Assembly: GCA_026413865.1 (NCBI GenBank)
Contig: JAOAKB010000002.1
Location: 49,507 to 113,506, forward strand
Reading direction: 5' to 3'
From: Nitrososphaeria archaeon
GTDB lineage: Archaea > Thermoproteota > Nitrososphaeria > JACIWG01
DNA: 64,000 nucleotides
Made by a program: the position numbers and the translations under genes. How positions within the stretch are numbered: the first letter of the stretch is position 1; every line of letters begins with the position of its first letter. This document shows, in pieces, positions 1,340 through 43,809 of the stretch. Below the pieces are notes generated by a model. The model was not told where the DNA came from. It worked only from the letters and a program-made list of their open reading frames with translations, and did no database searches.

Positions 1340-2323
1340 TTGGCTAATATTTCATTTGCGATACCTAAAGGGTCTCTTGAAAAAGCAACTTACGATTTTA
1401 TAGAAAAAGCGTTCATCAAACTATATGGCAAAGAAAGAAGCTACAGGCCAACATCAAGTGATACGGAAATCAAGTTTAAAATTTTAAGACCACAAGAAAT
1501 ACCAATATATGTTTCTGATGGATTATATGATTTAGGGATAACAGGCTTAGACTGGGTTCAAGAAACATCAGCAGATGTCAAAGTTCTTTTAAACCTTGAA
1601 TATGGTCAAACAAAACTTGTTTTTGCAGTTCCAAAAACATTTGAAGCAAACAATATGAATGAAATGATTAAAAAATACTGGTCTGAAAATAGGACACTAA
1701 GAATCTCGACAGAGTATCCTTTATCTATTTCAAAATATCTTATGTCACTCTCTGAATACAAGCAGATTTATGGCGGAATAAAGCCTATTATTATCACCCC
1801 ATGGTGGAAGACTGGCGAAAATAAGAATATACAAATATATCTTTCATTTGGTGCTACTGAAGCAAAACCTCCAGAAGAGGCAGACGCAATTGCAGACGTT
1901 TCAGAAACAGGCACAACACTAGAACAGAACGGATTAAAGCCATTAGACTTAATAATAGATTCACAAGCTGTACTAATAGCAAACAAAAGTTCTTTATCTA
2001 ATGAATTGAAGAGAGAAAAAATATATGACATTATAGCACTCTTTAGAGGAGTTATAGAAAGTGGGAAAAAATTGCATATATTCGTTAACGTTAAAGAAGA
2101 AAACCTTCAACCACTTGTTTCACTCTTGCCTGGACTAAAGGGGCCAACTATAAGTAAACTTTCTAAGCCCGGATGGTACGCAGTTAACACAGTAATATCA
2201 CGTTCAGAATACATGAAGCTTCTTCCAAAACTAAGAAAACTGGCTCAAGGTCTAGTGGTACATGAGCCACAACTGATAATGCCCTTAGAGGATATAGCGA
2301 AGGAAGAAAACGGTGAAAAATAA
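1340..2323 (+). CDS. hisG: ATP phosphoribosyltransferase (HisG), TTG start
   Basis: IPKGSLEKATYDFIEKA, DLGITGLDWV, ADAIADVSETGTTLEQNGL motifs; first gene of the his operon. Confidence 0.92.
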   Translation: MANISFAIPKGSLEKATYDFIEKAFIKLYGKERSYRPTSSDTEIKFKILRPQEIPIYVSDGLYDLGITGLDWVQETSADVKVLLNLEYGQTKLVFAVPKTFEANNMNEMIKKYWSENRTLRISTEYPLSISKYLMSLSEYKQIYGGIKPIIITPWWKTGENKNIQIYLSFGATEAKPPEEADAIADVSETGTTLEQNGLKPLDLIIDSQAVLIANKSSLSNELKREKIYDIIALFRGVIESGKKLHIFVNVKEENLQPLVSLLPGLKGPTISKLSKPGWYAVNTVISRSEYMKLLPKLRKLAQGLVVHEPQLIMPLEDIAKEENGEK

Positions 2324-2325
2324 GA

Positions 2326-3603
2326 TTGAAAACTTACTACATTAACAGAGAAAATATTAGAATGGTATTATCTAATATAAAAGAAAAGAGAACTTACATG
2401 AAAGATAGGGAAGAGATGGTGTTAAAGGTAATAGAGGATGTAAAAAGAAGAGGGGATGACGCATTAATTGAATACACTAAAATTTTTGATGGTATTATAC
2501 TGTCAAAGGATAAGATTCCCGTTAAAAGTGAGGAAATAAAAAATGCATACAGTTATATTAGTGAAGAACAGATTAAGGCATTAAAGATATTAAAAGAAAA
2601 TATAGAGAAAGTTGAAAAAGAAACCTTCAATAGAATGTTCTTTAAAATTGAAAATGATGGCTTCCAAATTATACAAACTTTAAAGCCAATAAATAGTGTT
2701 GGATGCTATGTACCTGGCGGTGAAGCGTCTTATCCTTCTACAGTGTTAATGGCAGCTATACCAGCAAAAGTTGCTGGAGTAAAGAGGGTTATTGTTGTTT
2801 CTCCACCAAAAAATTTGAGCGCACCACTATTGGTTGCGGCAGACATAGCAGGTGTTACAGAAATCTATCGTATAGGTGGTGCACATGCTATTGCAGCACT
2901 AGCCTACGGAACCGAAACAGTTAAGCCTGTGGATAAAATTGTTGGCCCTGGAGGAAAGTATGTGACTTTAGCGAAGGCTGCTGTAGCATGTGATGTTGCA
3001 ATAGATATGCTAGCAGGTCCTTCAGAACTTGTTATATATGCTGAGGGGGAAAGTTATGCTGAACAGATCGTGCTCGACCTTATTGCGCAAGCAGAACATA
3101 GCTCAGACACAATATGTGGACTTGTGACAACCTCTTCTAATCTCATTAAACGGGTTGCACAGCTTCTACCAGAGTATATTATGTCAGCACATAGACGTAA
3201 TATTGTTAATTTGTCTATCGAAAACAATGGCTTTCTAGCTTTAGCTGAAAATGAGGAAGTTGCAGTAGACTTCATCAACGAGCTTGCACCAGAACATTTA
3301 GAAATATTCTCAAAAGATTATGAAAAAATTCTTGATTCGATTAAAAATGTGGGTGCGATTATGATAAATGGTTCAAGTGTGGTAACAGACTATTATTGTG
3401 GAATAAACCATATACTCCCTACAAGTGGACAGGCAAGATATAGGGGGGGATTATCTTGTCTAGACTTTGTTAAAATCGTGAAAGTTATTGTAGCGTCAGA
3501 AAAATATTCTGAAAAAACACATTTTGTAATAGAACAACTCGGAAAATGTGAGGGATTACTTAATCATGTAAATAGTTTAATGTATAGAAAAGAGATAAGG
3601 TGA
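2326..3603 (+). CDS. hisD: Histidinol dehydrogenase, TTG start
   Basis: VGCYVPGGEASYPSTVLMAAIPAKVAGV, DKIVGPGGKYVTLAK, DMLAGPSELVIYA, LAPEHLEI, NHILPTSGQARYRGGLS. Confidence 0.95.
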   Translation: MKTYYINRENIRMVLSNIKEKRTYMKDREEMVLKVIEDVKRRGDDALIEYTKIFDGIILSKDKIPVKSEEIKNAYSYISEEQIKALKILKENIEKVEKETFNRMFFKIENDGFQIIQTLKPINSVGCYVPGGEASYPSTVLMAAIPAKVAGVKRVIVVSPPKNLSAPLLVAADIAGVTEIYRIGGAHAIAALAYGTETVKPVDKIVGPGGKYVTLAKAAVACDVAIDMLAGPSELVIYAEGESYAEQIVLDLIAQAEHSSDTICGLVTTSSNLIKRVAQLLPEYIMSAHRRNIVNLSIENNGFLALAENEEVAVDFINELAPEHLEIFSKDYEKILDSIKNVGAIMINGSSVVTDYYCGINHILPTSGQARYRGGLSCLDFVKIVKVIVASEKYSEKTHFVIEQLGKCEGLLNHVNSLMYRKEIR

Positions 3604-3649
3604 TTATAAATTGTATCTTTTATTCAATTAAATTTTTGAGGGAAACTAA

Positions 3650-4726
3650 ATGCCTGGAAACTATATTAAATTAGAGGACAAGAGAATATATTTGCATAAA
3701 AATTTTATAGAAGTTAAGAATAGTATAGAAAAACTGGTTTTTGATTGTGATGGCGTTCTAATAAATACAAACAATTCTTATAGAAAGACTATAAGAGAGA
3801 CACTTTCAATAATCTTTAAGCCCTTTCCTCAAAGAAGATTTATTGGATATAGGGAAATTGAAAAGCTAAAGTTTACAGGAATTTACAACAATGACTGGGA
3901 TACAACATACGCTTTAGCACTGTTTCTCTTTACAACCCTATCAGAGGAGCAGACTAAAGAATTAGTTAAATGGTTGACACTACAGAAAAATGATACTAGT
4001 TCTAAATCTTGTAAAAAGGGGTTTAACATAGAACTTCAAAGCTTCTTAAATAGCATAGAATCTGATCCAATTAAAGACCCTGAAAAATATGCAACAAAAG
4101 TATGCAAAGAAAAGGGAACATATAATGAACTAGAAGAATTTATTAAGATAATTGGAAAGCCAACTAATGTTCGAGAAAGTCTGCTAGCAAAAATCTTTGA
4201 TTCAATATATTATGGAGAAAAACTCTTTCAAAAAATATATAATATTGTTCCTCCAATCAAGATTCCAAAAGGAAATATTGAAACAGAAAGATTGTATATC
4301 AGTAAAAGAACATTATTATTTTTAAAAGAAACTTTCAATTCAAAAATATATCTACTTACAGGCAGATCTAAAATTTCAATTCAATACAAAATGAGATATA
4401 TGGAAGAATATTTTGATACAAAAAAATCATATTTTATAGAAGATATAGTTAGGGATGGTGTTGGAAACATAAATTTATTTAAAAAGCCTTCTCCAATACC
4501 ATTAATAAATTTGGCAGACAATCAACCAACATTATATATTGGAGATTCAACAGAAGATTTGATATTGGCTAAAAAGGCTAAGGATGTTTCAAACAAAATA
4601 TATTTTGCCGGAATAGTTAATCCAAATGATAAAATGGTAAGAAGATATTTTATGGAATCAAATGCAGATTTAATCGTTTTATCAGTTAATGACTTACCAA
4701 AAGTATTTAAGAACAAGATAAAGTGA
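3650..4726 (+). CDS. HAD-superfamily hydrolase embedded in the his operon (candidate histidinol-phosphate phosphatase)
   Basis: HAD motif I FDCDGVLINTNNSY; motif II LLTGRS; motif III/IV YIGDSTEDLILAKKA. Located between hisD and hisB. Confidence 0.8.
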   Translation: MPGNYIKLEDKRIYLHKNFIEVKNSIEKLVFDCDGVLINTNNSYRKTIRETLSIIFKPFPQRRFIGYREIEKLKFTGIYNNDWDTTYALALFLFTTLSEEQTKELVKWLTLQKNDTSSKSCKKGFNIELQSFLNSIESDPIKDPEKYATKVCKEKGTYNELEEFIKIIGKPTNVRESLLAKIFDSIYYGEKLFQKIYNIVPPIKIPKGNIETERLYISKRTLLFLKETFNSKIYLLTGRSKISIQYKMRYMEEYFDTKKSYFIEDIVRDGVGNINLFKKPSPIPLINLADNQPTLYIGDSTEDLILAKKAKDVSNKIYFAGIVNPNDKMVRRYFMESNADLIVLSVNDLPKVFKNKIK

Positions 4727-4734
4727 TTTAGTTT

Positions 4735-5310
4735 ATGAGAATAATGAAATTGGAACGTAAAACAAAGGAAACAGAAATAGTTATCACATTAAATTTAGAC
4801 GGAAGTGGCAAATATGAAATTGACACACCAATAGCCTTTTTAAATCACATGTTAAGTGAACTAGCGGTCCACTCCTTAATGGATCTACAGATTAAAGCAA
4901 AGGGTGACCTTAAGCATCATATTATTGAAGATGTCGCAATAGTTTTAGGAAATGCAATAAAAGATGCTTTAGGAGATAGAATAGGATTAAGAAGGTTTGG
5001 TTACGCTATGGTCCCAATGGATGATGCACTTGCATTAGCGAGTGTTGACCTTGTTAATAGACCGTATGTGTCAATAAAAATGAAGCTTGAAAAGCAAAGA
5101 GTTGAAGATGTAGCCTGTGAAGACATAATACACTTTATTGAAACTTTTGCTAAAAACATTCCCTGCACATTACATGTGGAAATTTTAAAGGGTGAAAATG
5201 TCCATCATAAGATTGAGGCAGCATTCAAGGCAATAGCGCTTTCATTAAGGGAGGCATGGTCCTATGATGAAAGAAGAGTGGGCAGTCCGAGCTCTAAAGG
5301 ACTGATGTAA
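4735..5310 (+). CDS. hisB: Imidazoleglycerol-phosphate dehydratase
   Basis: FLNHMLSELAVHSLMDL, HHIIEDVAIVLGNAIKDALGDR, HHKIEAAFKAIALSLREA. Confidence 0.95.
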   Translation: MRIMKLERKTKETEIVITLNLDGSGKYEIDTPIAFLNHMLSELAVHSLMDLQIKAKGDLKHHIIEDVAIVLGNAIKDALGDRIGLRRFGYAMVPMDDALALASVDLVNRPYVSIKMKLEKQRVEDVACEDIIHFIETFAKNIPCTLHVEILKGENVHHKIEAAFKAIALSLREAWSYDERRVGSPSSKGLM

Positions 5311-5913
5311 ATGATTTTTGCAGTTATAGATTATGGAGCAAGTAACATGTTCAGTCTTATAGCATCCCTTAAACGAGCAAATGTACAAGTAAAAATAGTT
5401 GATGAAAGAGAAAGATTAGAAAAATATTCTGCTATAATATTACCTGGTGTTGGAAATTTCACTTCAGCTGTTCAAAAGATATCTAATCTTAAAAATGAAA
5501 TTTTAGACGCAGTAGCTAAAGGAACATACATTTTTGGAATATGTTTAGGCATGCAGTTACTATTTAATGAAAGCGAAGAAGGACAAGGGGAAGGTTTAAG
5601 CATATTTAGAGGAAAAGTAGTAAAGTTTCCAAAAACAATAAAAGTACCGCATATGGGCTGGAATCTTGTAGAACCTCAAGGATATAGCTTACTGTTATCA
5701 GATTTTGAGAGAGAAAGGTGGGCTTACTTTGCACACTCCTATTATCCAAACCCTTCCAACAACAATATTGTTAAAGGGATAACACATTATGGTATAAAAT
5801 TTGTTTCTGTTGTAGAAGAAGGAAACATATTTGGGACACAATTTCATCCGGAAAAGTCTGGAGAATTTGGTAGACGAATTATTAAAAATTTTGTAGAATA
5901 TGTTAGAAGGTGA
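5311..5913 (+). CDS. hisH: Imidazole glycerol phosphate synthase glutaminase subunit HisH
   Basis: IDYGASNMFSLIASL, LPGVGNF, GICLGMQLLFNESEEG, GTQFHPEKSGEFG. Confidence 0.95.
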   Translation: MIFAVIDYGASNMFSLIASLKRANVQVKIVDERERLEKYSAIILPGVGNFTSAVQKISNLKNEILDAVAKGTYIFGICLGMQLLFNESEEGQGEGLSIFRGKVVKFPKTIKVPHMGWNLVEPQGYSLLLSDFERERWAYFAHSYYPNPSNNNIVKGITHYGIKFVSVVEEGNIFGTQFHPEKSGEFGRRIIKNFVEYVRR

Positions 5914-5919
5914 GAGTTT

Positions 5920-6639
5920 TTGGAAATATTGCCTGCAATAGACTTGATGGATGGTAAGGTTGTAAGATTAATAAGAGGGCAACCATCAAACATTATTGTA
6001 TATTCGGATAATCCTTGTAAAGTTGCATTAGAATGGGAGAAAAGTGGAGTCCCAGGAATACACGTTATCGATCTTAATGCAGCATTTGGTTCAGGAAATA
6101 ATCGAAAAATAGTCAAAAAAATATGTGAGAATATAAGGTTGCCAATAAACTTTGGAGGGGGATTGCATACAATTGAAGATATAGAGGAAGCATTTAGTAT
6201 AGGAGTTAGTAGAGTTATTGTTGGATCAGCAATCTTTACAAGAAAACTTGAGTTAGAGGAGGTACTATCTTTTGGAAAAGATAAGGTTATTGTAGCAATT
6301 GATCACAAGAACGGTAAAGTTACAATAGATGGATGGAAAACAGTTTTATCTATAGACATATATGATGCAATGAAAAGTCTCTGGTCTAGGGGTGCAAGAC
6401 TCTTTCTTACAACCAATACACAAACAGATGGAACGTTAGAGGGTATAGATATCCAATACCTAAAAAAGGTAGAAGAATTTTTAAAACAAGTCTATGTAGC
6501 AGGAGGAATATCCTCAATAAGTGATCTATTAATCTTGAAGCAGATGAAGGTTAAAGGTGTAGTTTTAGGAAGAGTATTATATGATAAGATTATAGATATT
6601 AAAGAGGCTTTAGAGGTTGCTAAAGATGACTGTAGCTAA
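5920..6639 (+). CDS. hisA: Phosphoribosylformimino-5-aminoimidazole carboxamide ribotide isomerase, TTG start
   Basis: [69 protein letters not shown]. Confidence 0.93.
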
Positions 6640-27839: not shown

Positions 27840-30800
27840 ATGAAAGCCATTTTCTTAAAACTTTGCCCAAACTGTGGAGGTGATATAAGCGATTACAGAC
27901 TCTCTTTAAAAGTTCCATGTGAAAAATGTTTACCTTTATCCGATGAAAAAATTTTAGAAATTGTAAGTGACAAGAAGAATGTACAGTTATATATTTTGGA
28001 ACTTTTAAAGAACTCAGATTCATTAAAAAACTTACGCAGTCTATATGAAATTGAAATTCAGTTAGAGGAATTAAATAATTTATTTCACAGGGCTACAGGG
28101 AGTAGGCTTTGGAGTGCACAAAGAACTTGGGCTAAAAGGATATTTTCTGGAAAAAATTTTGCAATTATAGCACCAACAGGAATGGGAAAAAGTGTTTTTG
28201 GAATAATCCTCTCACTCTACTATGCTTTGAAAAACAGGAAATGTTACATAATTGTTCCAACTGCAATTTTAGCAGAACAAACTTATCAGAGAATGATAAT
28301 ATTTTTAGAAAAAATTGGTACACAAATAAAAATTTCACGATACCATTCAATGTTAAGTGAAAAGGAAAGGGAGCTAGAAAAAGAAACAATTATTAGCAGA
28401 CAATATCATATATTAGTTACAACATCAGCTTTTCTTTCAAAAAATTTTGAAATGATAAATGGAGATGTTTTTGATTTGATCGTAGTAGATGATGTTGATG
28501 CACTATTAAAGTCTTCAAAAAATGTTGACAAGGTACTATGTTTAGCTGGTTTTTCAGAAGAAATAATAGCACAGGGGCTTAGACTAATTGAGCTTAGAAG
28601 AAAATATCAAAAGAATTTGAGGAAAGGTGAAAATGTAACAGAACTAATAGATGAAATATGGAATATAAGAAAGAGAATAGAAAATTATATGAATACAAAG
28701 AAAATTGGGAACATAATTGTATCAGGTGCATCTCCACGAGCGAAGAGGACAAAAAGGATAAAATTGTTTAAGGAGCTTATGGGCTTCGAAATCGGATCTA
28801 GAATAGAATTTATAAGGAACATAGAAGACCTTTTTATTCAAAAAGTGGATAATATTGAAGAAAAGGTTGTGCAACTTGTTAAGATTCTTGGCTCTGGCGG
28901 AATCATATTTGTGCCCATGGATAAGGGTCTAGAGTTTGCTGAGAAATTATATAAAAAATTATCAAAGGAAAAAATTAGTGTTTCATTATATGATAGAACT
29001 AAAGCTAAAATTTTAGAAGATTTTTCTTCAGGCAAGATTGAACTTTTGATTGGAATCGCATCCTACAGAAGCCCTCTTGCAAGAGGAATAGATTTACCAC
29101 ATATAATAAGATATGCTATATTTGCTGGAGTACCAAAATTTAAGATAAGTCTAGACATGGAAAAGGACTTTACTCCAACTAGGGCTATAATATTACTTTC
29201 AAATTTAAAAGAACTTGTAAGAGAAGAAGAACAAGCAATTATTGAAAAATATGTTACAGAATTAAGAAGTATAGTGCAGCAAATACCATCAAGTGATATC
29301 AAGGAAATTTTAGACTCAATATACAATAATTTAAAGCTTGAAGGATACAAAGGCATAATTAAAGAAAAACTTGAAAAAATTAGAGAGTTTCTTATAAAAC
29401 TTTTGTCTATGGAAGAGATTATAGAAAAAATTAGATCATCACCTAATATAACAATAAGTTCGGAAAGGGACAGACCATTCTTAGTTATACCCGATACCAT
29501 CGGATATATACAGGCTTCTGGAAGAACATCAAGAATGTTTGTTGGAGGTATATCAAAAGGAATATCTGTCACAATTGTTGATGATGAAAAAGCATTTAAT
29601 GGACTAGTTAGAGAATCCAGACTATTTTCTGAAGAAATAGAGTGGAAAAATTTTGATGAAGTAAACTTAAATCAAATTTTAGAGGAAGTTGATAGAGATC
29701 GGGCTACAATAAAAATGCTTATGGCAGGTACTATAAGCCCACAATTTAAAGACCCTATAACAACAGCACTTTTAGTGGTAGAATCACCAAATAAGGTTAA
29801 AACGATTGCAAGATTTTTTGGGAAACCAAGTAAAAGAACAGTTAACGGATTAACAGTTTATGAAGTGAGTACGGGTGATTATATTCTTAACATAACTGCA
29901 AGTGGGGGACACCTATTTGACCTACCAACCCATTTAGAAAAGAATAGTATTCATGGAGTAATAAGATTAGATGATAAATTTGTACCAGTATATATTACAA
30001 TAAAAATATGCAGAAAATGTAAGAAAACTTTCGCAAAACCTTTAGAAAAATGTCCTTACTGCCAAACAGAGGTAATAGATAAAGCAAATACAATAGAGGC
30101 GTTAAGAAAACTTGCTTTAGAAACAGACCAAGTATTGATTGGTACAGACGCAGATGCTGAAGGAGAAAAGATAGGATGGGATATATCCACAGCACTCTCG
30201 CCATATACACCAAAAATAAAACGAATAGAATTTCATGAAATAACAAAAAGAGCTTTAGTGAATGGATTAAGAAACATGAGAGACATGGATATGAAGCTTG
30301 TAGAAGCACAGATGGTTAGAAGAGTAGAGGACCGTTGGCTAGGTTTCGAGTTAAGTGCAAAACTTTGGGACAGATTTAATGATAAGACGCTTTCAGCAGG
30401 AAGAGTACAAACACCTGTTCTAGGATGGATTATTAACAGAACAAACGAATCCAGAAAAAGTTTCCAGACATTTTTTGAAATAATATTAAAAAACGGACTA
30501 AAATTTATTATAAAAATACCAATAGTAGAAGACAGTGTAGTCAGGGAAGAAATTGATAAACTGCTTAAAACAAAATATTATATAAAATGCTTGTCTAAGG
30601 AGGAGATAGAAATTCATCCACTTCCACCATATTCTACGGACACATTACTTCAAGAGGCAGCGATTACATTAAAATTTACTGTACAGAAGACAATGAATAT
30701 TGCACAAGATCTATTCGAACTAGGACTAATAACATACCATAGAACAGACAGTATAAGAGTTTCACCTACTGGACAGAATGTGGCAAAAGAGTATATTATT

Positions 30801-31505
30801 GACAAATTTAATAAAACATTCTTCAAACCAAGAGAATGGTCAAAAGAAGGCGCTCATGAATGCATTAGGCCAACAAGACCAATTGATGCAGTAAGATTAA
30901 AGCATATGCTTACTTTAGGAAGTATAAAACTTGCGAAAAAGATCACTCAAGAACACTTTCAACTGTATGAACAAATATTTAGAAGATTTATAGCAAGCCA
31001 AATGAAACAAGCAAAAGTGTTAAAAGAAAGGTATGAAATTAGATTCAACAATAATATTGAGTTTATTGAAGGATACACAAAGATAATAGAAGAAGGATTC
31101 AATTTGATCCAAAAAATAAATCTTATTCCAGAATTGCAGGGAGGAGAAGTTAGGGCTATAAATGTGAAAAGTTGGAAAGCACCAACAATACCACTCTTAA
31201 AACAAGCTGATGTAATAAAGCTGATGAAGCTAAAGGATATAGGTAGGCCGTCAACATATGCAAAAATTGTCACAACCCTCTTCCAAAGAGGATATGTACA
31301 GGAAAACGATAGGAAGGATATAATTCCAACAAAAAAAGGATACCAAGTGTACTTTTATCTAAACAAAAGATTCTATGAATTTATTTCAGAAGAGACTACA
31401 CAAAGATTAAAGAAGACCATGGATTCAATAGAAGAAGGTAAAGTAGACTATCAACAAATACTTAATAATCTTTACAAAGAAATACTAACTATAAGAGGAC
31501 AGTGA
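27840..31505 (+). CDS. rgy: Reverse gyrase (helicase plus topoisomerase IA)
   Basis: N-terminal zinc finger CPNCGG..CEKC; Walker A APTGMGKSVFG; VVDDVDALL; second zinc finger CRKCKKTFAKPLEKCPYC; topo IA ESPNKVKTIARFFG, GTDADAEGEKIGWD, catalytic Tyr ITYHRTDSIRVS. Confidence 0.97.
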   Translation: MKAIFLKLCPNCGGDISDYRLSLKVPCEKCLPLSDEKILEIVSDKKNVQLYILELLKNSDSLKNLRSLYEIEIQLEELNNLFHRATGSRLWSAQRTWAKRIFSGKNFAIIAPTGMGKSVFGIILSLYYALKNRKCYIIVPTAILAEQTYQRMIIFLEKIGTQIKISRYHSMLSEKERELEKETIISRQYHILVTTSAFLSKNFEMINGDVFDLIVVDDVDALLKSSKNVDKVLCLAGFSEEIIAQGLRLIELRRKYQKNLRKGENVTELIDEIWNIRKRIENYMNTKKIGNIIVSGASPRAKRTKRIKLFKELMGFEIGSRIEFIRNIEDLFIQKVDNIEEKVVQLVKILGSGGIIFVPMDKGLEFAEKLYKKLSKEKISVSLYDRTKAKILEDFSSGKIELLIGIASYRSPLARGIDLPHIIRYAIFAGVPKFKISLDMEKDFTPTRAIILLSNLKELVREEEQAIIEKYVTELRSIVQQIPSSDIKEILDSIYNNLKLEGYKGIIKEKLEKIREFLIKLLSMEEIIEKIRSSPNITISSERDRPFLVIPDTIGYIQASGRTSRMFVGGISKGISVTIVDDEKAFNGLVRESRLFSEEIEWKNFDEVNLNQILEEVDRDRATIKMLMAGTISPQFKDPITTALLVVESPNKVKTIARFFGKPSKRTVNGLTVYEVSTGDYILNITASGGHLFDLPTHLEKNSIHGVIRLDDKFVPVYITIKICRKCKKTFAKPLEKCPYCQTEVIDKANTIEALRKLALETDQVLIGTDADAEGEKIGWDISTALSPYTPKIKRIEFHEITKRALVNGLRNMRDMDMKLVEAQMVRRVEDRWLGFELSAKLWDRFNDKTLSAGRVQTPVLGWIINRTNESRKSFQTFFEIILKNGLKFIIKIPIVEDSVVREEIDKLLKTKYYIKCLSKEEIEIHPLPPYSTDTLLQEAAITLKFTVQKTMNIAQDLFELGLITYHRTDSIRVSPTGQNVAKEYIIDKFNKTFFKPREWSKEGAHECIRPTRPIDAVRLKHMLTLGSIKLAKKITQEHFQLYEQIFRRFIASQMKQAKVLKERYEIRFNNNIEFIEGYTKIIEEGFNLIQKINLIPELQGGEVRAINVKSWKAPTIPLLKQADVIKLMKLKDIGRPSTYAKIVTTLFQRGYVQENDRKDIIPTKKGYQVYFYLNKRFYEFISEETTQRLKKTMDSIEEGKVDYQQILNNLYKEILTIRGQ

Positions 31506-33813: not shown

Positions 33814-34512
33814 TTGTCTAAAAGAGGTATAAGTAGTGAAAGAATAGCAAAAAGTATTCTTAAAAAGATGGGGTTCCAGATTTTGGAAAAGAACAAGAAG
33901 GTTGTGCTAAATGGAACTCAAGTTTTTGAAGTAGACCTTATAGCAAAGGATGAAATGGGAGACGTATACTGTGTTGAAGTTAAAGCGGGAAGAATTGGTG
34001 TAAGTGATGTAAGGCAGGCTTACGCAAATTCTATGGTCCTTGGATTAAAGCCTTTGATAATTTGTAAAGGTTATGCTGACAAAGCTACAGAAGTTTTGGC
34101 GGAAGAACTTAAAGTTAAAGTTTTTTTGTTTCCAGACTACTATTATCTAATAGAGCCTGAAGATCTGGATTATATTGTTAGAGAGGCTGTAAGGGATGTG
34201 CTAGAAGAGTACGGGTTAGTGAGCTTAACTGTTTTTGACACTATCACTAAAAAGGAGCTAAAGATCCTTAAGACACTTTCTGAAAAAGAAACGTTTGAGG
34301 AGTGTGCAAAAAGTTTAAACATTAGCTTAGAAAAATTGGGAGAACATATTTCTTTAATGAGAGAGAAGGGATTGTTACGTAAAACTGAAGGATACGAGGG
34401 TATAAGGAGACAAGCTAAGAGAACACTCATTTTCTTGGAAATGATAAACACATTTGAAAATATACAGAAGAATATTAAGAATATTTTAAAAAGGCTTGAA
34501 ACTAAAAATTGA
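33814..34512 (+). CDS. RecB-like PD-(D/E)XK nuclease fused to a C-terminal winged-helix domain, TTG start
   Basis: GISSERIAKSILKKMGFQILEKN...FEVDLIAKDEMGDVYCVEVKAGRIGVSDVRQAYA; C-terminal LKILKTLSEKETFEECAKSLNISLEKLGEHISLMREKGLLRKTEGY. SD-like AAGGAG before TTG. Confidence 0.75.
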   Translation: MSKRGISSERIAKSILKKMGFQILEKNKKVVLNGTQVFEVDLIAKDEMGDVYCVEVKAGRIGVSDVRQAYANSMVLGLKPLIICKGYADKATEVLAEELKVKVFLFPDYYYLIEPEDLDYIVREAVRDVLEEYGLVSLTVFDTITKKELKILKTLSEKETFEECAKSLNISLEKLGEHISLMREKGLLRKTEGYEGIRRQAKRTLIFLEMINTFENIQKNIKNILKRLETKN

Positions 34513-34568: not shown

Positions 34569-36581
34569 TTGCAATCAGGAGAAAAGATATTAGATAAAAG
34601 TATAAGACCATTAACGTATATTCGTGAAGTTATTTTAGAAAATTTTATGTCATACGAGTATGCTCGAATTCCCCTTTCAAGAGGGTTAAATATAGTATGT
34701 GGACCGAACGGTTCAGGAAAATCTTCAATACTTTTAGGAATCTCTGTAGCACTTGGACAGATATATACAGAAAGGTCTAGAAGATTAAGTGACCTTATTA
34801 GAAGAGGAAAGGATCTGGGTCGTGTGACGATAGTCTTTGATAACACCAGCTTTAATGGAAAAAGACCTATACCTTCCTCTCATTCTGACACATTCATGAT
34901 TTCAAGATATTTGAGAAAAGACGGATCATATTGGTTCGAAATAGATTATAAGGAGACATCTTCATCTGAAGTTAGAGAAATTCTTTCAAGTCTAAACATT
35001 AACCCAGATAACATGCTTCTTATAATGCATCAAGGAATGGTTGAAGAATTTGCAATAGTAAGTCCTCAAGATAAGCTTAAAATGGTTGAAGAAGTTGTAG
35101 GCTTAACTGGTTATAGAGAAAGGATTATAGAATCACAGAATAAACTAAAGAGTTTAGTTAGCGAGGAAAATGCCATAAGACAACTCATGGACATGGCTAA
35201 AGAAACACTTTCACATTGGAAAGATGTTTATGATAGATATATGAGGAAACAGGAACTTATAGTTAAAAGAGACAATCTTTTAAGAGAAAAGTTTTGGGCT
35301 CAAGTTATAAAACTTGAAAAGGGTATTGAAGTAACTACAAACAAACTTGATCTTAAAAGGAAGGAGTTAAGTGAACTTTCTAGAAGACTACTTTTGGCCG
35401 AGGAAAAATGCAGTCTTCAAGAAAAGGACATGCATTCGACCTTCAACAAGCTTAAGAAAAGCTACCATTCCCTTATCTTCTTAGACGCGGACAAGAGGGC
35501 AATAGAATCAAGAATTAAATCACTTTCAGAAACTATAATTTCATTTGAGAATATATTGTCCAAGTTAAATAGTCTTATACAGAGTATAAAGGAGGATGCC
35601 AAGGACATTAGGTTACTGCAAAAGGATATCACAATACTTCTAGAAGGTTGGCGAAGAGAAGCTGATTTGGAGTCCAAAAAAGTCGATGAAATTGTGAATG
35701 AAATTAATTTAATTGAGAAATCTATAGCAGAAATTGAGGAAGGTCTATTCACGCTAATAAGAAAATATTCTGAGGAGAAAGCTAATGCTACACTTCTAGC
35801 CTACCAAAAAAGAGTTAGTGAAAAAGAAGTTTCCGAAATTGAACATAATCTAAATGAGCTGAAAGCAGAATTAGAAAATTTAGAAACACAAAAAGAGGCA
35901 ATGAAACCAAGACCATCAACAGTAAGGCCGCTAAATGATATAGAAAGTGAACTTTCTTCCATAAACGCCCAACTTGAAACATATTCTGATGTTCCAGACG
36001 AAGCTAAAAACATATTTGAAGCATATTCTTCAAGATATAAGGAACTTGAGGAAAAGCTTAAAAAAGTTATAGAGAATAAAGAGATAGTTCTACAGGAGCT
36101 TGAAGAGAGAAAGAAAGTTTGGCATGATGAAATTTATAGAATATTGGATTTTGTGAACCCAAAATATCAGGAACTCCTAAGAGGATTAAACGCATATGGT
36201 TACATTAGATTAATAAATGAGGAAGAGTTTGAAAAAGCAGGACTTGAACTTTTAATAGGCTTTAGAGGGGCTAGACCAGCAGTCTTAGATGCTTATACAT
36301 TAAGTGGTGGTGAAAGGAGTACCGCTACAATTGCATTCCTTCTAGCACTACAGAAGCTTTCACCATCACCAATTGTTGCAGTCGACGAATTTGATGTGCA
36401 CATGGATCCAGTTAATCGGGAAAGAATGTTTAGAGCAATATTTCAAATGGTACAGGATGAGCCAAAACAGTATATTGTGATAACACCAAGTCAAGTTAAC
36501 ATATATGGTGATAATGTAAACTATATTGTTACACAGATAGTTGATGGAAAAAGCGGAGTTGGTGCAATTGCAAGAAAGTGA
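34569..36581 (+). CDS. Short SMC-like ATPase with Smc6-like head motifs and no visible hinge, TTG start
   Basis: IREVILENFMSYEY..RGLNIVCGPNGSGKSSILLGISVALG...RRLSDLIRRGKDLGRVTIVFDN; coiled coil; YTLSGGERSTATIAFLLALQKLSPSPIVAVDEFDVHMDPVNRERMF. Confidence 0.85.
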   Translation: MQSGEKILDKSIRPLTYIREVILENFMSYEYARIPLSRGLNIVCGPNGSGKSSILLGISVALGQIYTERSRRLSDLIRRGKDLGRVTIVFDNTSFNGKRPIPSSHSDTFMISRYLRKDGSYWFEIDYKETSSSEVREILSSLNINPDNMLLIMHQGMVEEFAIVSPQDKLKMVEEVVGLTGYRERIIESQNKLKSLVSEENAIRQLMDMAKETLSHWKDVYDRYMRKQELIVKRDNLLREKFWAQVIKLEKGIEVTTNKLDLKRKELSELSRRLLLAEEKCSLQEKDMHSTFNKLKKSYHSLIFLDADKRAIESRIKSLSETIISFENILSKLNSLIQSIKEDAKDIRLLQKDITILLEGWRREADLESKKVDEIVNEINLIEKSIAEIEEGLFTLIRKYSEEKANATLLAYQKRVSEKEVSEIEHNLNELKAELENLETQKEAMKPRPSTVRPLNDIESELSSINAQLETYSDVPDEAKNIFEAYSSRYKELEEKLKKVIENKEIVLQELEERKKVWHDEIYRILDFVNPKYQELLRGLNAYGYIRLINEEEFEKAGLELLIGFRGARPAVLDAYTLSGGERSTATIAFLLALQKLSPSPIVAVDEFDVHMDPVNRERMFRAIFQMVQDEPKQYIVITPSQVNIYGDNVNYIVTQIVDGKSGVGAIARK

Positions 36582-37332
36582 AAAAATTCAAAAAATTCTA
36601 AAGATAGTTGAGATGCTAAATACTGTTATAGGCTCAAATCTTGACCCATTTAAGGTTGATGTCAAAGAGTATGTTCTAAGACTAAAGGAACTTTTACCAA
36701 ATCTAAAAGAATTAGATGAAATCTTAATGGATGCCGAAGCTTTAAGACTTTTAGCAAGGATTGTTGAACTCCAAGAAAAATGGGTAAGATATCAAGCATC
36801 ATCCCTTTATGTTGACCCACTTATCGTCGAGCTAAAGATAATCACATTACCGCCAGAAAGATTAGCTGAAATATTTTCAAGAAGCTGGCATCCTATAGTC
36901 AAAATAGAACAGGTAACATTGAATGAGATAATCCGTGCAGCAAGCTACTGGAACACATTACTACCTATTCCAGAAAGATTTAGGAGAGAAACTGTTGAGG
37001 AAACCAAACTTTCACTTTTAGACAAAGAAGAACTAGTGAAAATGAAGATATTAACCGAAGAGGAATTAAATAAGAGACTTGAAGAATTGAGTATGGAGCT
37101 CAATAAATTTTTAGAAAATGAGGAGAAAGTTGATTACTGGAAATTTGTTCGAGGAAAAGACTATAACGAGACAATAACTAGGGCAGTACTATTAGCACAC
37201 ATAATTTCAATGGGACATGCAAGTCTAGAGATAAAGCCTTTAGAAGAAAAGATTGAAATTGTTAAGGGAGGACAAAAAAGGCAGCCAAGATCTTTTGCAA
37301 TTTCAATGCAAAAATTAGGTGAAAGAGATTGA
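36541..37332 (+). CDS. ScpA-like kleisin (candidate)
   Basis: SNLDPFKVDVKEYVLRLKELLPNLKELDEILMDAEALRLLARIVELQEKW resembles the ScpA N-terminal region; C-terminal WH-like DYNETITRAVLLAHIISMGHASLEI. 41-bp overlap with the SMC-like gene. Confidence 0.65.
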   Translation: MMEKAELVQLQESEKIQKILKIVEMLNTVIGSNLDPFKVDVKEYVLRLKELLPNLKELDEILMDAEALRLLARIVELQEKWVRYQASSLYVDPLIVELKIITLPPERLAEIFSRSWHPIVKIEQVTLNEIIRAASYWNTLLPIPERFRRETVEETKLSLLDKEELVKMKILTEEELNKRLEELSMELNKFLENEEKVDYWKFVRGKDYNETITRAVLLAHIISMGHASLEIKPLEEKIEIVKGGQKRQPRSFAISMQKLGERD

Positions 37333-37904
37333 ATTCTGAGGAAGAGATTAGAATAAAAGTAAGGAAAGCATTACAGCTTCTACTATTACCTAAGGTTAGG
37401 GCGCCAGGTGTAAAAGGATGGGAGCTAAAGAGAACTCTTGGGAAAGATTATAAAAAAGTTTTAGAAGTACTCTCATCAGAGCTTGAAAGAATCGGTTTAA
37501 CTATAAAGGTTGTGAACGAATCCGGAGAAATGGTAGCATCGGTAGGAGAAGAGGAACTTGATAATGCCAGATACTATATAATTTTTAAGGAGGGAATTAG
37601 TTTAAGAGAGGCTTCAACATCTGGGATGAGCGTAGATGATATGGCTGCACTAGCTATAATATTAAGCTATTTAACAACAAAGCATGGTAAAGCACCTGTA
37701 AAGGAGGTTGAAAAACTTCTTAAGGAAAAACTTCCCAAATGGAAAGTGGAGTGGAATATTAGACGTTTTATAAGAAAAGGTTATCTAAATAGGGAGGGAG
37801 AAATGCTTTTATTGGGATGGAGAAGTCTAGTGGAAGTAGACCTAAAATCTCTTCTAAATTTAATTCTAGCAACATCAGTAAAAGAAAGTTCTGAAATTCA
37901 GTAA
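37329..37904 (+). CDS. Tandem winged-helix kite protein, Nse3/MAGE-like (candidate), TTG start
   Basis: DDMAALAIILSYLTTKHGKAPVKEVEKLLKEKLPKWKVEWNIRRFIRKGYLNREGEMLLLGWRSLVEVD resembles the MAGE WH-B layout. Start overlaps the kleisin stop (TTGA). Confidence 0.55.
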   Translation: MNSEEEIRIKVRKALQLLLLPKVRAPGVKGWELKRTLGKDYKKVLEVLSSELERIGLTIKVVNESGEMVASVGEEELDNARYYIIFKEGISLREASTSGMSVDDMAALAIILSYLTTKHGKAPVKEVEKLLKEKLPKWKVEWNIRRFIRKGYLNREGEMLLLGWRSLVEVDLKSLLNLILATSVKESSEIQ

Positions 37905-39362: not shown

Positions 39363-42212
39363 ATGAATAATGTGTTTAAACTATTTCCATCTATAATACA
39401 GAAGGCTATAGAAGAATTTGGATTTAAGGAGCCAACTGAACCTCAGATTAAGGCAATTCCATCAATATTAAATGGAGAAAATGTTTTGCTCGTTGCACCT
39501 ACGGGAACAGGTAAAACTGAAGCAGCCTTTTTCCCAATTTTAAGCAAGATTATTTCTCAAGAAAGATTACCAGGTATAAAGTTACTCTATATAACACCAT
39601 TAAGGGCTTTAAATAGAGACCTACTTGACCGCCTTGAATGGTGGTGTAAAAAGTTTGATTTAAAGTTGGCTGTTAGACATGGTGATACTAGTGCTTTAGA
39701 AAGGAGTAAGCAGTCTATTGCACCACCAGACATATTAATAACTACACCAGAAACTTTTCAAGCAATACTTCCTGCAAAAAGGATTAGAAAACATTTGAAA
39801 GCTGTAAAATGGGTTATTGTTGATGAGGTTCATGAGCTTGCTGAAGACAAAAGGGGCGCTCAGCTTTCTCTTGGTCTAGAACGTTTAAGAGAAAATGTTG
39901 GCGAAGATTTTCAGATAATTGGATTATCTGCTACAATAGGTTCCCCTGAAAATGTTGCAAAATTTCTTGTTGGAACAAACAGAGACTGTAAGATCATAGA
40001 CGTTAGAATTGAGAGACAACTTAAGGTTGAAATAGTTTACCCCCATCCTGCACCCCAAGACTATCATCTTGCCTCAAAGCTTTTTATGTTCCCTGAAGTT
40101 GTAGCCCGTCTTAGGTTAATAAGGAAGTTAATTGAGGAACATAATTCTACGCTAGTGTTCACGAACACACGCATAGAAAATGAGATTCTAGGCAGTAGGT
40201 TTAAGGTTTGGGAAAGCGAGTACCCGATATCTGTTCATCACGGATCATTATCTAAATCATCAAGAGTTAAAGCCGAAAGAGAGTTGAAAGAGGGTATATT
40301 AAAGGGTATAATCTGCACAAGCTCCCTAGAAATGGGCATAGATATAGGAAGACTTGATCTGGTTATACAATATAATTCACCAAGACAGGTTACTAGGCTT
40401 GTTCAGAGGATAGGGAGAAGTGGTCACAAGATTGGCATGGTAGCCAAAGGTGTTATAATAACACAGGATTCTGATGACTTTTGGGAATCTATTATAATTG
40501 CGAAAAGGGCAATACAGGGTGTTCTAGAAAAAACAAATGTTATAGATAAGCCTTTGGATGTTTTAGCACATCAGCTTGTGGGAATACTTTTAGATGGACA
40601 CAGGTTAAGTTTAGAAGAAGTTTTTGAACTTGTTAAGAGGTCTTATGTTTATAGAAATCTTACTAAAGAAGAATTTATGATGGTTTTAAACTACTTGAGT
40701 GAAAGAAAGCCTTCACTTGCAAGAGTTTTAGATAACAACTTTAGGAAACCTGTAAGGATTGGACCACTTTATCAATACTATTTTAACACACTTTCAATGA
40801 TACCTGAAGAAAAGCACTACATTGTAATAGACGAAAATGGTGAACCTGTTGGAACTTTAGATGAAAGCTTTGTTACTGAATATGGTGAGGTTGGCCTAAA
40901 ATTTATTTTAAGAGGAGCTATTTGGAAGGTTGAAAATATTTCTGATGGAAAAGTTTACGTTAGGCTAGAAGACGATCCAACTGGAGCTATTCCATTTTGG
41001 GTTGGTGAAGAAATTCCTGTACCTTATGAAATCGCAAATGAAGTTGGAATCTTAAGAAGGAAAGTAGAAGAATATTATCATAAAAAAATTAGTAAAGATA
41101 AAATAATAAGCTTACTCTGTGAAGAATATTCAATTCCCTTAAACGAATGCGAATACGGTTTAAAAGAAATATTTGAGCACATAGAGAAAGGATTTCCTGT
41201 ACCGACAGACAAGACAGTTACAATAGAAAAGTGGAAAGAATTTATTATAATACAATGCTGTTGGGGCCACCTTGTAAATAGAACTTTAGGAAGAGCATTA
41301 TCTTATATATTGTCTAATAGGTTTGGATATCCTGTTGGAGTTCAATTTGATCCATATAGAATAGTCTTGAGAGCATCATGGCTTGCACAAAAAGATGTTA
41401 TAGATGCATTAAATGATATTGAACCAGGTAAGCTGGAGGAGATAGTTAGAAAAGAATTGCTCGGTTCAGGAATATTTAAGAGACATTTTGTTAATGCTGC
41501 AAAAAAGTTTGGTGCAATATCAAAAGATGCAAATTTATCCGATATCTCAATACAGAAGTTAATGGAAGCATTAAAGGATACAGCGGTAACAGAAGAGGCT
41601 TTAAGAAGCACATTAAGAAGTGAAACAGATATAGAAAATTCTAGAAAAGTGCTTGAAATGATAAGATCTAAAGAAATCAGATTAGAAATCGTCTTAAAAG
41701 AGGAACTTTCACCAATAGCAAGGGTTGGTATGGAAGAGTTAAGTAGAAGAACAGAGATAGTGCCCCCGGAAAGACTAAAACATATAATAGTACAGATTGT
41801 GAAAGCAAGATTGCTAGAAGAAGCTTTTACAGTAGTATGCACAGAATGTTGGAATTACGTAGAAAATTTTAGAGTAAAGAAACTGCTTTATGGCATAAGC
41901 TGTCCAAAATGTGGCTCAAAAAAGATCGGGTTATATCAAGAAGATGAAGAAAAGATTAGAAAGTTAACATATAGAATGAAGGCTGGAATCAGGGAACCAC
42001 CTAAACAATTAAAAAGAATGTATAGTAAAATTATGAAAACAGCTCAAGTTATTGAGAAGTATGGTGGCATAGCATCATTTGTGCTAGCGGAACCCACCTT
42101 AACATTAAAGGACGTAGAAGAAATACTGGAGAAACATAAAATTTTGTCAGATGAGCTCGTAAATAGAATTATCGAATTGAGTAAAAGAAATCTTAGGAAA
42201 AGATTTATGTAA
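39363..42212 (+). CDS. lhr: Lhr-type superfamily 2 helicase
   Basis: VAPTGTGKTEAAFFPILS; VDEVHELAEDKRGAQLSLGLERL; CTSSLEMGIDIGRLDLVIQYNSPRQVTRLVQRIGRSGHK; C-terminal CTEC..CPKCG. Confidence 0.9.
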   Translation: MNNVFKLFPSIIQKAIEEFGFKEPTEPQIKAIPSILNGENVLLVAPTGTGKTEAAFFPILSKIISQERLPGIKLLYITPLRALNRDLLDRLEWWCKKFDLKLAVRHGDTSALERSKQSIAPPDILITTPETFQAILPAKRIRKHLKAVKWVIVDEVHELAEDKRGAQLSLGLERLRENVGEDFQIIGLSATIGSPENVAKFLVGTNRDCKIIDVRIERQLKVEIVYPHPAPQDYHLASKLFMFPEVVARLRLIRKLIEEHNSTLVFTNTRIENEILGSRFKVWESEYPISVHHGSLSKSSRVKAERELKEGILKGIICTSSLEMGIDIGRLDLVIQYNSPRQVTRLVQRIGRSGHKIGMVAKGVIITQDSDDFWESIIIAKRAIQGVLEKTNVIDKPLDVLAHQLVGILLDGHRLSLEEVFELVKRSYVYRNLTKEEFMMVLNYLSERKPSLARVLDNNFRKPVRIGPLYQYYFNTLSMIPEEKHYIVIDENGEPVGTLDESFVTEYGEVGLKFILRGAIWKVENISDGKVYVRLEDDPTGAIPFWVGEEIPVPYEIANEVGILRRKVEEYYHKKISKDKIISLLCEEYSIPLNECEYGLKEIFEHIEKGFPVPTDKTVTIEKWKEFIIIQCCWGHLVNRTLGRALSYILSNRFGYPVGVQFDPYRIVLRASWLAQKDVIDALNDIEPGKLEEIVRKELLGSGIFKRHFVNAAKKFGAISKDANLSDISIQKLMEALKDTAVTEEALRSTLRSETDIENSRKVLEMIRSKEIRLEIVLKEELSPIARVGMEELSRRTEIVPPERLKHIIVQIVKARLLEEAFTVVCTECWNYVENFRVKKLLYGISCPKCGSKKIGLYQEDEEKIRKLTYRMKAGIREPPKQLKRMYSKIMKTAQVIEKYGGIASFVLAEPTLTLKDVEEILEKHKILSDELVNRIIELSKRNLRKRFM

Positions 42213-43017: not shown

Positions 43018-43809
43018 ATGTTGAATGCTAAAATATTGTTTAAAGAACATGCTGTATTATTAAATTGTAAAATAAAAATTCTTGTCATCTCAGACATCCA
43101 TTTAGGTTATGAAGTTGAACTTATCAAAAAAGGTGTTAATGTACCAGAAAGAGCACCAATCTTGGCAGAAGAAATTGTAAATTTAGGAAAAAAAACGAAT
43201 ACAAAAATACTATATATACTTGGTGATGTTAAACATAAGATTGCAACAGCATCCAACTTTGACCTGTATCAGATAACACTATTTTTTGAAAAAATAAAAA
43301 AATGGTTTAATGAAGTAAATGTTACATTAGGAAATCATGATGGAGGATTAAAGAAACTTCTACCATCAAGTGTCAATTTAACTGGAAGCAGGGGAACAAT
43401 TATTAAATGCGATAATGAAAAAATTTCACTCTTTCATGGTCACGCTTTCCCACAACCAGATAGTATTCACTCAAAATATATTATTACAGGACATGGCCAC
43501 TATTTGATTGAACTAAAGGATACAATTGGATTAAAGTTCACTGAACCAATATGGATTGTTGGAGAAATTAATAGAAAAAAATTTTCAAAAAATTATCAAA
43601 AAAATAAAGAAAGCATACCTAAAGAGAACATAAAATTCATTGTCATACCACCATTTAACAGAATTGTGGGAGGAATTTCTATAGATAAGGCTGTCGAAAA
43701 TTCAATAATTTTAAAGTATATGATAAAGAAGAATACAAAGTTATTTTTGGAAGATGGAACATATCTAACAACATTTTCTAATCTGATAAAGTTTAATCCA
43801 ACAAAATAA
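43018..43809 (+). CDS. ICC-like metallophosphoesterase (Lhr-associated type)
   Basis: ISDIHLGYEVELIKKGVNVPERAPILAE; LGDVKHKI; TLGNHDGGLKKLL; FHGHAFP; TGHGHYLIELKD. Confidence 0.85.
   Translation: MLNAKILFKEHAVLLNCKIKILVISDIHLGYEVELIKKGVNVPERAPILAEEIVNLGKKTNTKILYILGDVKHKIATASNFDLYQITLFFEKIKKWFNEVNVTLGNHDGGLKKLLPSSVNLTGSRGTIIKCDNEKISLFHGHAFPQPDSIHSKYIITGHGHYLIELKDTIGLKFTEPIWIVGEINRKKFSKNYQKNKESIPKENIKFIVIPPFNRIVGGISIDKAVENSIILKYMIKKNTKLFLEDGTYLTTFSNLIKFNPTK

Follow-up and report, generated by a model that had tools for sequence, protein, structure and literature searches.

A conserved archaeal operon encoding a putative hinge-less, Smc5/6-type SMC–kleisin–kite complex

Among the three SMC complexes of eukaryotes, least is known about Smc5/6. 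Could an archaeal operon, in which an SMC-like ATPase gene is followed by genes for a kleisin and a tandem winged-helix (kite) protein, encode a simpler relative of it? Such a minimal Smc5/6-type relative was the reading of the initial annotation, and it was supported by the profile, tree and fold evidence that we obtained for the three subunits. The operon most likely encodes a stripped-down, probably homodimeric SMC–kleisin–kite complex of the Smc5/6 type, which would serve as a DNA clamp in chromosome maintenance; neither a model of the complex nor biochemical evidence is available for this reading.

The operon, its distribution and its neighbourhood

The window, i.e., the whole 64,000-nucleotide stretch of DNA analysed, comes from a 1.45-Mb assembly of 102 contigs that is 77% complete. 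Its archaeal class also includes ammonia oxidisers; AmoA was detected in families f3, f9 and f10 and was not found in the window genome. Three plus-strand open reading frames for the SMC, kleisin and kite were present with every motif cited in the initial annotation. The features are as follows, in window coordinates.

34569–36581, + strand: mini-SMC ATPase gene, Smc5/6 type, 670 aa; predicted N-head, short hinge-less coiled coil and C-head
34701–34727, + strand: Walker A GPNGSGKSS, residues 45–53; in 26 aligned homologs either unchanged or with conservative substitutions only
35112–36086, + strand: predicted coiled-coil hairpin joining the heads, about residues 182–506; position approximate, no detectable hinge domain
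36303–36317, + strand: ABC signature SGGER, residues 579–583; SGGE invariant in the 26-member alignment
36384–36407, + strand: Walker B region DEFDVHMD, residues 606–613, Smc6-like in sequence, with ITP downstream
36541–37332, + strand: kleisin, 263 aa as the longest ORF; 254 aa from the probable TTG start at 36568
37057–37266, + strand: kleisin C-terminal winged-helix domain; AlphaFold2 pLDDT about 66–88 over most of it, with matches to the ScpA/Scc1 C-terminal winged-helix domain
37329–37904, + strand: kite, 191 aa, two winged-helix domains, Nse1/Nse3-type by PDB profile and Foldseek
39363–42212, + strand: Lhr-type DEAD helicase, 949 aa (Pfam DEAD, DEAD_assoc and WH_Lhr); conserved neighbour, not shown to be in the complex

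The 4-bp TTGA overlap described for the second and third genes was correct, whereas the 41-bp overlap described for the first and second was a product of choosing the longest ORF. In a close relative (locus L033), the kleisin start codon leaves an overlap of 14 bp with the SMC gene; the corresponding codon in the window is a TTG at 36568, which GGAG precedes by about 9 nt. These start signals suggest that the true SMC/kleisin overlap is probably 14 bp.

Mini-SMC was detected in 34/61 relatives. When neighbourhoods from the class of the window genome and from the wider phylum were compared, the order SMC–kleisin–kite on one strand was found at 48 of the 49 loci for which the compared stretch included all three genes. 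The genes were dispersed at one locus (L112), the SMC of one genome was on another contig (L100), and one locus was cut off by a contig end. The initial annotation had proposed a co-occurrence check across archaeal genomes, and this check found the SMC and kite to be co-inherited: of 400 genomes sampled from the phylum, 159 had a match to the kite profile, 158 one to the SMC profile and 153 both, so that 153 of the 164 positive genomes had both and 11 had one only (Fisher p = 9e-96). On account of the gene order and this co-inheritance, the operon arrangement is far from chance. Mini-SMC and the kite each occurred as one copy per genome in nearly all cases. No long form of mini-SMC was seen among the SMC matches listed for the 400-genome sample, because their open frames measured only about 300–760 aa, the shortest being truncated. 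IMG/VR virus scans returned generic SMC/Rad50-like heads only, with no kite and no copy of the system.

A separate canonical operon lies on contig C58 of the window genome and comprises a 1178-aa SMC with a hinge (1349–4885), a ScpA-like gene (4882–5523) and ScpB (5523–6059; Pfam 1.7e-27). Therefore, this organism has two SMC–kleisin–kite systems. Canonical-SMC searches of 50 genomes, weak Rad50-like matches aside, left mini-SMC as the only SMC-type protein in at least 17 genomes (G010, G013, G063, G072, G079, G086, G138, G067, G088, G114, G174, G225, G242, G278, G154, G254 and G416) of eight families (f5, f14, f18, f35, f37, f45, f55 and f63), most of these genomes being 90–99% complete. The ammonia-oxidiser families had the canonical SMC form only.

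Several further observations concern SMC content in the phylum. About 146 of the 400 genomes had neither mini-SMC/kite nor a detectable hinge SMC, in agreement with the previously reported loss of SMC in Crenarchaeota. Long SMCs with weak or undetected PF06470 hinge matches occurred in several families (loci L217, L218 and L219; L199, L211 and L201), and some ORFs of this set start about 100–165 aa before the head, which may reflect mis-called starts or real extensions. An assignment of family f12 to Sulfolobaceae was rejected, as Sul7d was absent in 36/36 genomes tested and was detected in the Sulfolobus control. In Thermofilum adornatum, according to a review, the two chromosome halves are juxtaposed although clear subunits of an SMC complex are lacking (PMC11946384). 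Mini-SMC is carried by a Thermofilales genome (L063) and by family f37, and it was considered as an explanation of this arm juxtaposition. This was rejected on finding no match in genus g77, which is probably Thermofilum (G201, G156, G219, G191, G344, G213 and G123, several of them closed, 1.1–1.9 Mb, of the same order as G278). Other genera of the family have mini-SMC as their only SMC, and the loss in g77 is worth comparing with them.

As to the genomic context, a 1221-aa reverse gyrase is encoded at 27840–31505 of the window, and its presence suggests that the host is probably a thermophile. Of 23 families sampled, 14 had the Lhr-type helicase close to the operon, mostly as the adjacent downstream gene in convergent orientation; in the window, it is the second gene after the kite. 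A calcineurin-like phosphoesterase (43018–43809) lies two genes beyond the helicase. The gene directly upstream of the operon (33814–34512) encodes a nuclease-like domain (UPF0102/Mrr-like) fused to a helix-turn-helix region, and it was absent from the neighbours conserved across families. The Lhr helicase hints at repair, a link that would rest on homology and synteny only.

This distribution bears on a different reading, in which the operon would be an SMC-based defence system of the Wadjet or Lamassu type, acting against plasmids or viruses and not on the chromosome. Wadjet also consists of an SMC, a kleisin and a kite, and the ATPase has PADLOC matches to JetC (1e-16) and LmuB (5e-21). However, these matches, together with one to mad3, were set aside as generic ATPase-head matches, and neither the kleisin nor the kite had a PADLOC match. 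Eukaryotic Smc5/6 does restrict episomal viral DNA (PMC10586767), but no conserved defence effector or nuclease gene was found in the operon neighbourhoods, and the usual single copy, the fixed order, the broad conservation and the standing of the operon as sole SMC complex in several lineages all speak against such a system. Thus, we consider a defence function unlikely.

Affinities of the three subunits

When a profile of 26 mini-SMCs was searched against the whole PDB, Smc5 (4.4e-64) and Smc6 (6.1e-61) scored better than any canonical Smc, archaeal ones included. The [IVL][TS]P motif after Walker B was present in 50/50 mini-SMCs versus 4/20 long SMCs; the Walker B of canonical SMCs reads DE[VI]DAHLD. 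A head tree was then built from 39 sequences, namely 19 mini-SMCs, 14 long archaeal SMCs, human SMC1A, SMC2, SMC3 and SMC6, and yeast Smc5 and Smc6; the set left out SMC4 and human Smc5, and the human head sequences were checked against PDB chains. Mini-SMC and Smc5/6 were split from the long archaeal SMCs and SMC1–3 with support of 100/100, and the grouping of mini-SMC with Smc5/6 stayed at 99–100 when the longest branches were dropped in three ways. In a Rad50-rooted tree, this clade was recovered at 100/99 with Rad50 outside it. Furthermore, an AU test rejected a single eukaryotic SMC clade uniting Smc5/6 with SMC1–3 (p = 1e-9).

The initial annotation had put the SMC nearer to Smc6 than to canonical Smc. 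Its separation from canonical Smc was borne out by the PDB profile and the tree, whereas a particular closeness to Smc6 was not: the mini-SMCs formed one group beside Smc5 and Smc6 jointly (78/87 without Rad50 and 93/96 with it). A head phylogeny inside Rad50, named beforehand as an outcome that would refute the reading, was not obtained, the heads joining Smc5/6 with 99–100% support. The sister position would fit one archaeal-type gene that predated the Smc5/Smc6 duplication.

For the kleisin, a profile of 41 sequences searched against the PDB matched yeast Nse4 first (8.6e-5), followed by EID3 of the human Nse4 family (1.8e-3) and ScpA (0.022). A sorting nexin match of the first kleisin profile was due to chance and was gone with a wider alignment. 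In hhalign, an alignment with archaeal ScpA of its own phylum spanned most of the kleisin (96.1% probability, E 3.1e-9). Its AlphaFold2 model was of low confidence overall (pLDDT 54); nevertheless, the best two Foldseek matches were Nse4, and the C-terminal winged-helix domain matched ScpA/Scc1 C-domains with target TM of 0.65–0.77. The second gene product is thus a kleisin, as had been claimed, its best matches by profile, hhalign and Foldseek being Nse4, ScpA and Scc1 and not a non-kleisin fold.

The kite profile, searched against 177,635 PDB sequences, matched MAGE/Nse3 (0.0046) and Nse1 (0.058 and 0.072) first, and Nse3 and Nse1 remained the best genuine matches with a wider alignment. A match to a designed repeat protein was set aside as chance. 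No relation to ScpB of the same phylum was detectable (0.6% probability). The AlphaFold2 model was of medium confidence (pLDDT 70.5), and against 350,542 chains its Foldseek ranks 1–9 were all Nse1, Nse3 or MAGE, ScpB coming only at positions 34 and 40; global TM for the predicted-fold matches was only 0.3–0.44. The single E-values are weak (0.005–0.07), and the assignment of the kite to the Nse1/Nse3 type, which agrees with the resemblance to MAGE/Nse3 over ScpB noted earlier, rests on rank and on the agreement of sequence profiles with a predicted fold.

Might the operon instead be a shortened, fast-evolving copy of canonical Smc–ScpA–ScpB that lost its hinge and came to resemble Smc5/6 by convergence? 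The kleisin is ScpA-like too, and the canonical operon has the same gene order. Against these two points stand the full support for heads apart from canonical SMC, which persisted without long branches, the AU test, the kite without a detectable ScpB relation and the coexistence of both operons in the window genome. Such an origin is therefore very unlikely.

Absence of a detectable hinge and short arms

The families listed for 26 mini-SMC members did not include SMC_hinge, which in the window genome matched only the canonical SMC, on another contig, and not mini-SMC. By these domain searches, mini-SMC is an SMC without a detectable hinge. The segment between the heads was 184–307 residues long in 91 sequences (some of them repeat fetches of one gene), giving a predicted arm of about 17–26 nm; the arm of bacterial Smc is about 47 nm (PMC5344682). 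Another reading takes mini-SMC for an ASRP/coalescin or Rad50 relative, dimerising through a zinc hook and without a true kleisin partner. The size is similar (ClsN, 68 kDa with a coiled coil of about 350 aa; PMC9764264), but this reading is hardly credible given that the CxxC zinc hook was absent in all 26 mini-SMC members, the ASRP model scored 71 bits against a cut-off of 300 and the Rad50 models fell far under theirs, Rad50 lay outside the mini-SMC/Smc5/6 clade, and the operon supplies kleisin and kite partners.

A proposed clamp and its relation to known complexes

We propose that one Nse4/ScpA-like kleisin would connect the ATPase heads of two mini-SMC subunits; its C-terminal winged helix would, by homology, bind an SMC head, and it would carry the Nse1/Nse3-like kite. 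ATP-driven head engagement together with the kite would most likely clamp DNA above the heads, as in Smc5/6. Because the arms are short and lack a hinge, the ring may close through head–head and kleisin contacts, and perhaps through the coiled-coil tip. The complex would most likely serve to maintain the chromosome, through repair, recombination or DNA handling linked to replication, alongside canonical Smc–ScpA–ScpB where both are present; where the canonical complex is missing, the operon product would act as the only SMC–kleisin complex. Stoichiometry, physical assembly, ATP-dependent DNA clamping and the cellular role (repair or segregation) are extrapolated from the known families, whereas composition, homology, operon conservation, the lack of a detectable hinge, the Smc5/6 grouping and the absence of a long SMC in several lineages were computed.

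A bolder reading, which we regard as a serious possibility that falls somewhat short of probable, is that this hinge-less complex is the living counterpart of a single-SMC ancestor of Smc5/6 and does chromosome-scale work alone in several archaeal families. If so, the hinge and long arms would be dispensable for an SMC–kleisin machine. Because the hinge is held to be a hallmark of SMC complexes, an SMC that lacks it but has a kleisin and a kite puts current ideas about ring closure and loop extrusion to the test. The operon encodes a single motor, kleisin and kite, each nearest to an Smc5/6 subunit; it offers a simple system for probing the job of the ancestral machine and makes the question of Smc5/6 origin testable.

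No description of a hinge-less SMC accompanied by a kleisin and an Nse1/3-type kite of its own was found; van Hooff et al. 2025 (Cell Reports 44:115855), which reportedly deals with archaeal ancestors of SMC complexes, may cover part of it. The SMC clade itself is not new, because an archaeal 'SMC5/6-related' SMC clade was reported by Yoshinaga and Inagaki in 2021 (as cited in PMC9389158 and PMC10003631). In the literature examined, no mention was found of kleisin or kite partners, a hinge-less form or genomes in which it is the sole SMC. The strongest features that go beyond the initial annotation are the absence of the hinge, the phylum-wide operon and the standing as sole SMC in several families. 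The general view of archaeal SMC complexes as kite-less (PMC7055376) also needs qualifying in the light of this operon.

Among known systems, MukBEF and MksBEF-JetABC (Wadjet) are likewise kite-type SMC complexes with a kleisin; their SMCs, however, are long and have a hinge, whereas the kleisin and kite of the operon had no match to their families and no JetD nuclease lies nearby. ASRPs, coalescin (ClsN) and Sph are, like mini-SMC, small archaeal proteins of the SMC superfamily. Most ASRPs have a zinc hook and no consistent gene neighbours (PMC9389158), whereas mini-SMC has consistent neighbours and no hook. Canonical archaeal Smc–ScpA(–ScpB) shares the three-gene layout, and its ScpA is homologous to the operon kleisin (96%). 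Its SMC, in contrast, is 1170–1190 aa long with a hinge and the DE[VI]DAHLD motif, its kite is different, and mini-SMC scored 208 bits against the canonical model TIGR02169, for which the cut-off is 729. Archaeal ScpB has been reported not to bind ScpA (PMC7055376). The heads of the archaeal 'SMC5/6-related' clade, as reported, likewise group with Smc5/6 and not with canonical SMC, and the window mini-SMC very probably belongs to this clade.

Unlike eukaryotic Smc5/6, the operon has one SMC and one kite gene in place of two each, and thus no heterodimer; mini-SMC has no hinge, its arms are about half as long or less, and no RING, Nse2 or Nse5/6 genes were seen in the operon. Yet it is the Smc5/6 core (Smc5, Smc6, Nse4, Nse1 and Nse3) that gave the best PDB matches for all three operon subunits, and the two share the Smc6-like DEFDVxMDxxNR, the TP motif after Walker B and the combination of a kleisin with a kite of the Nse1/Nse3 type.
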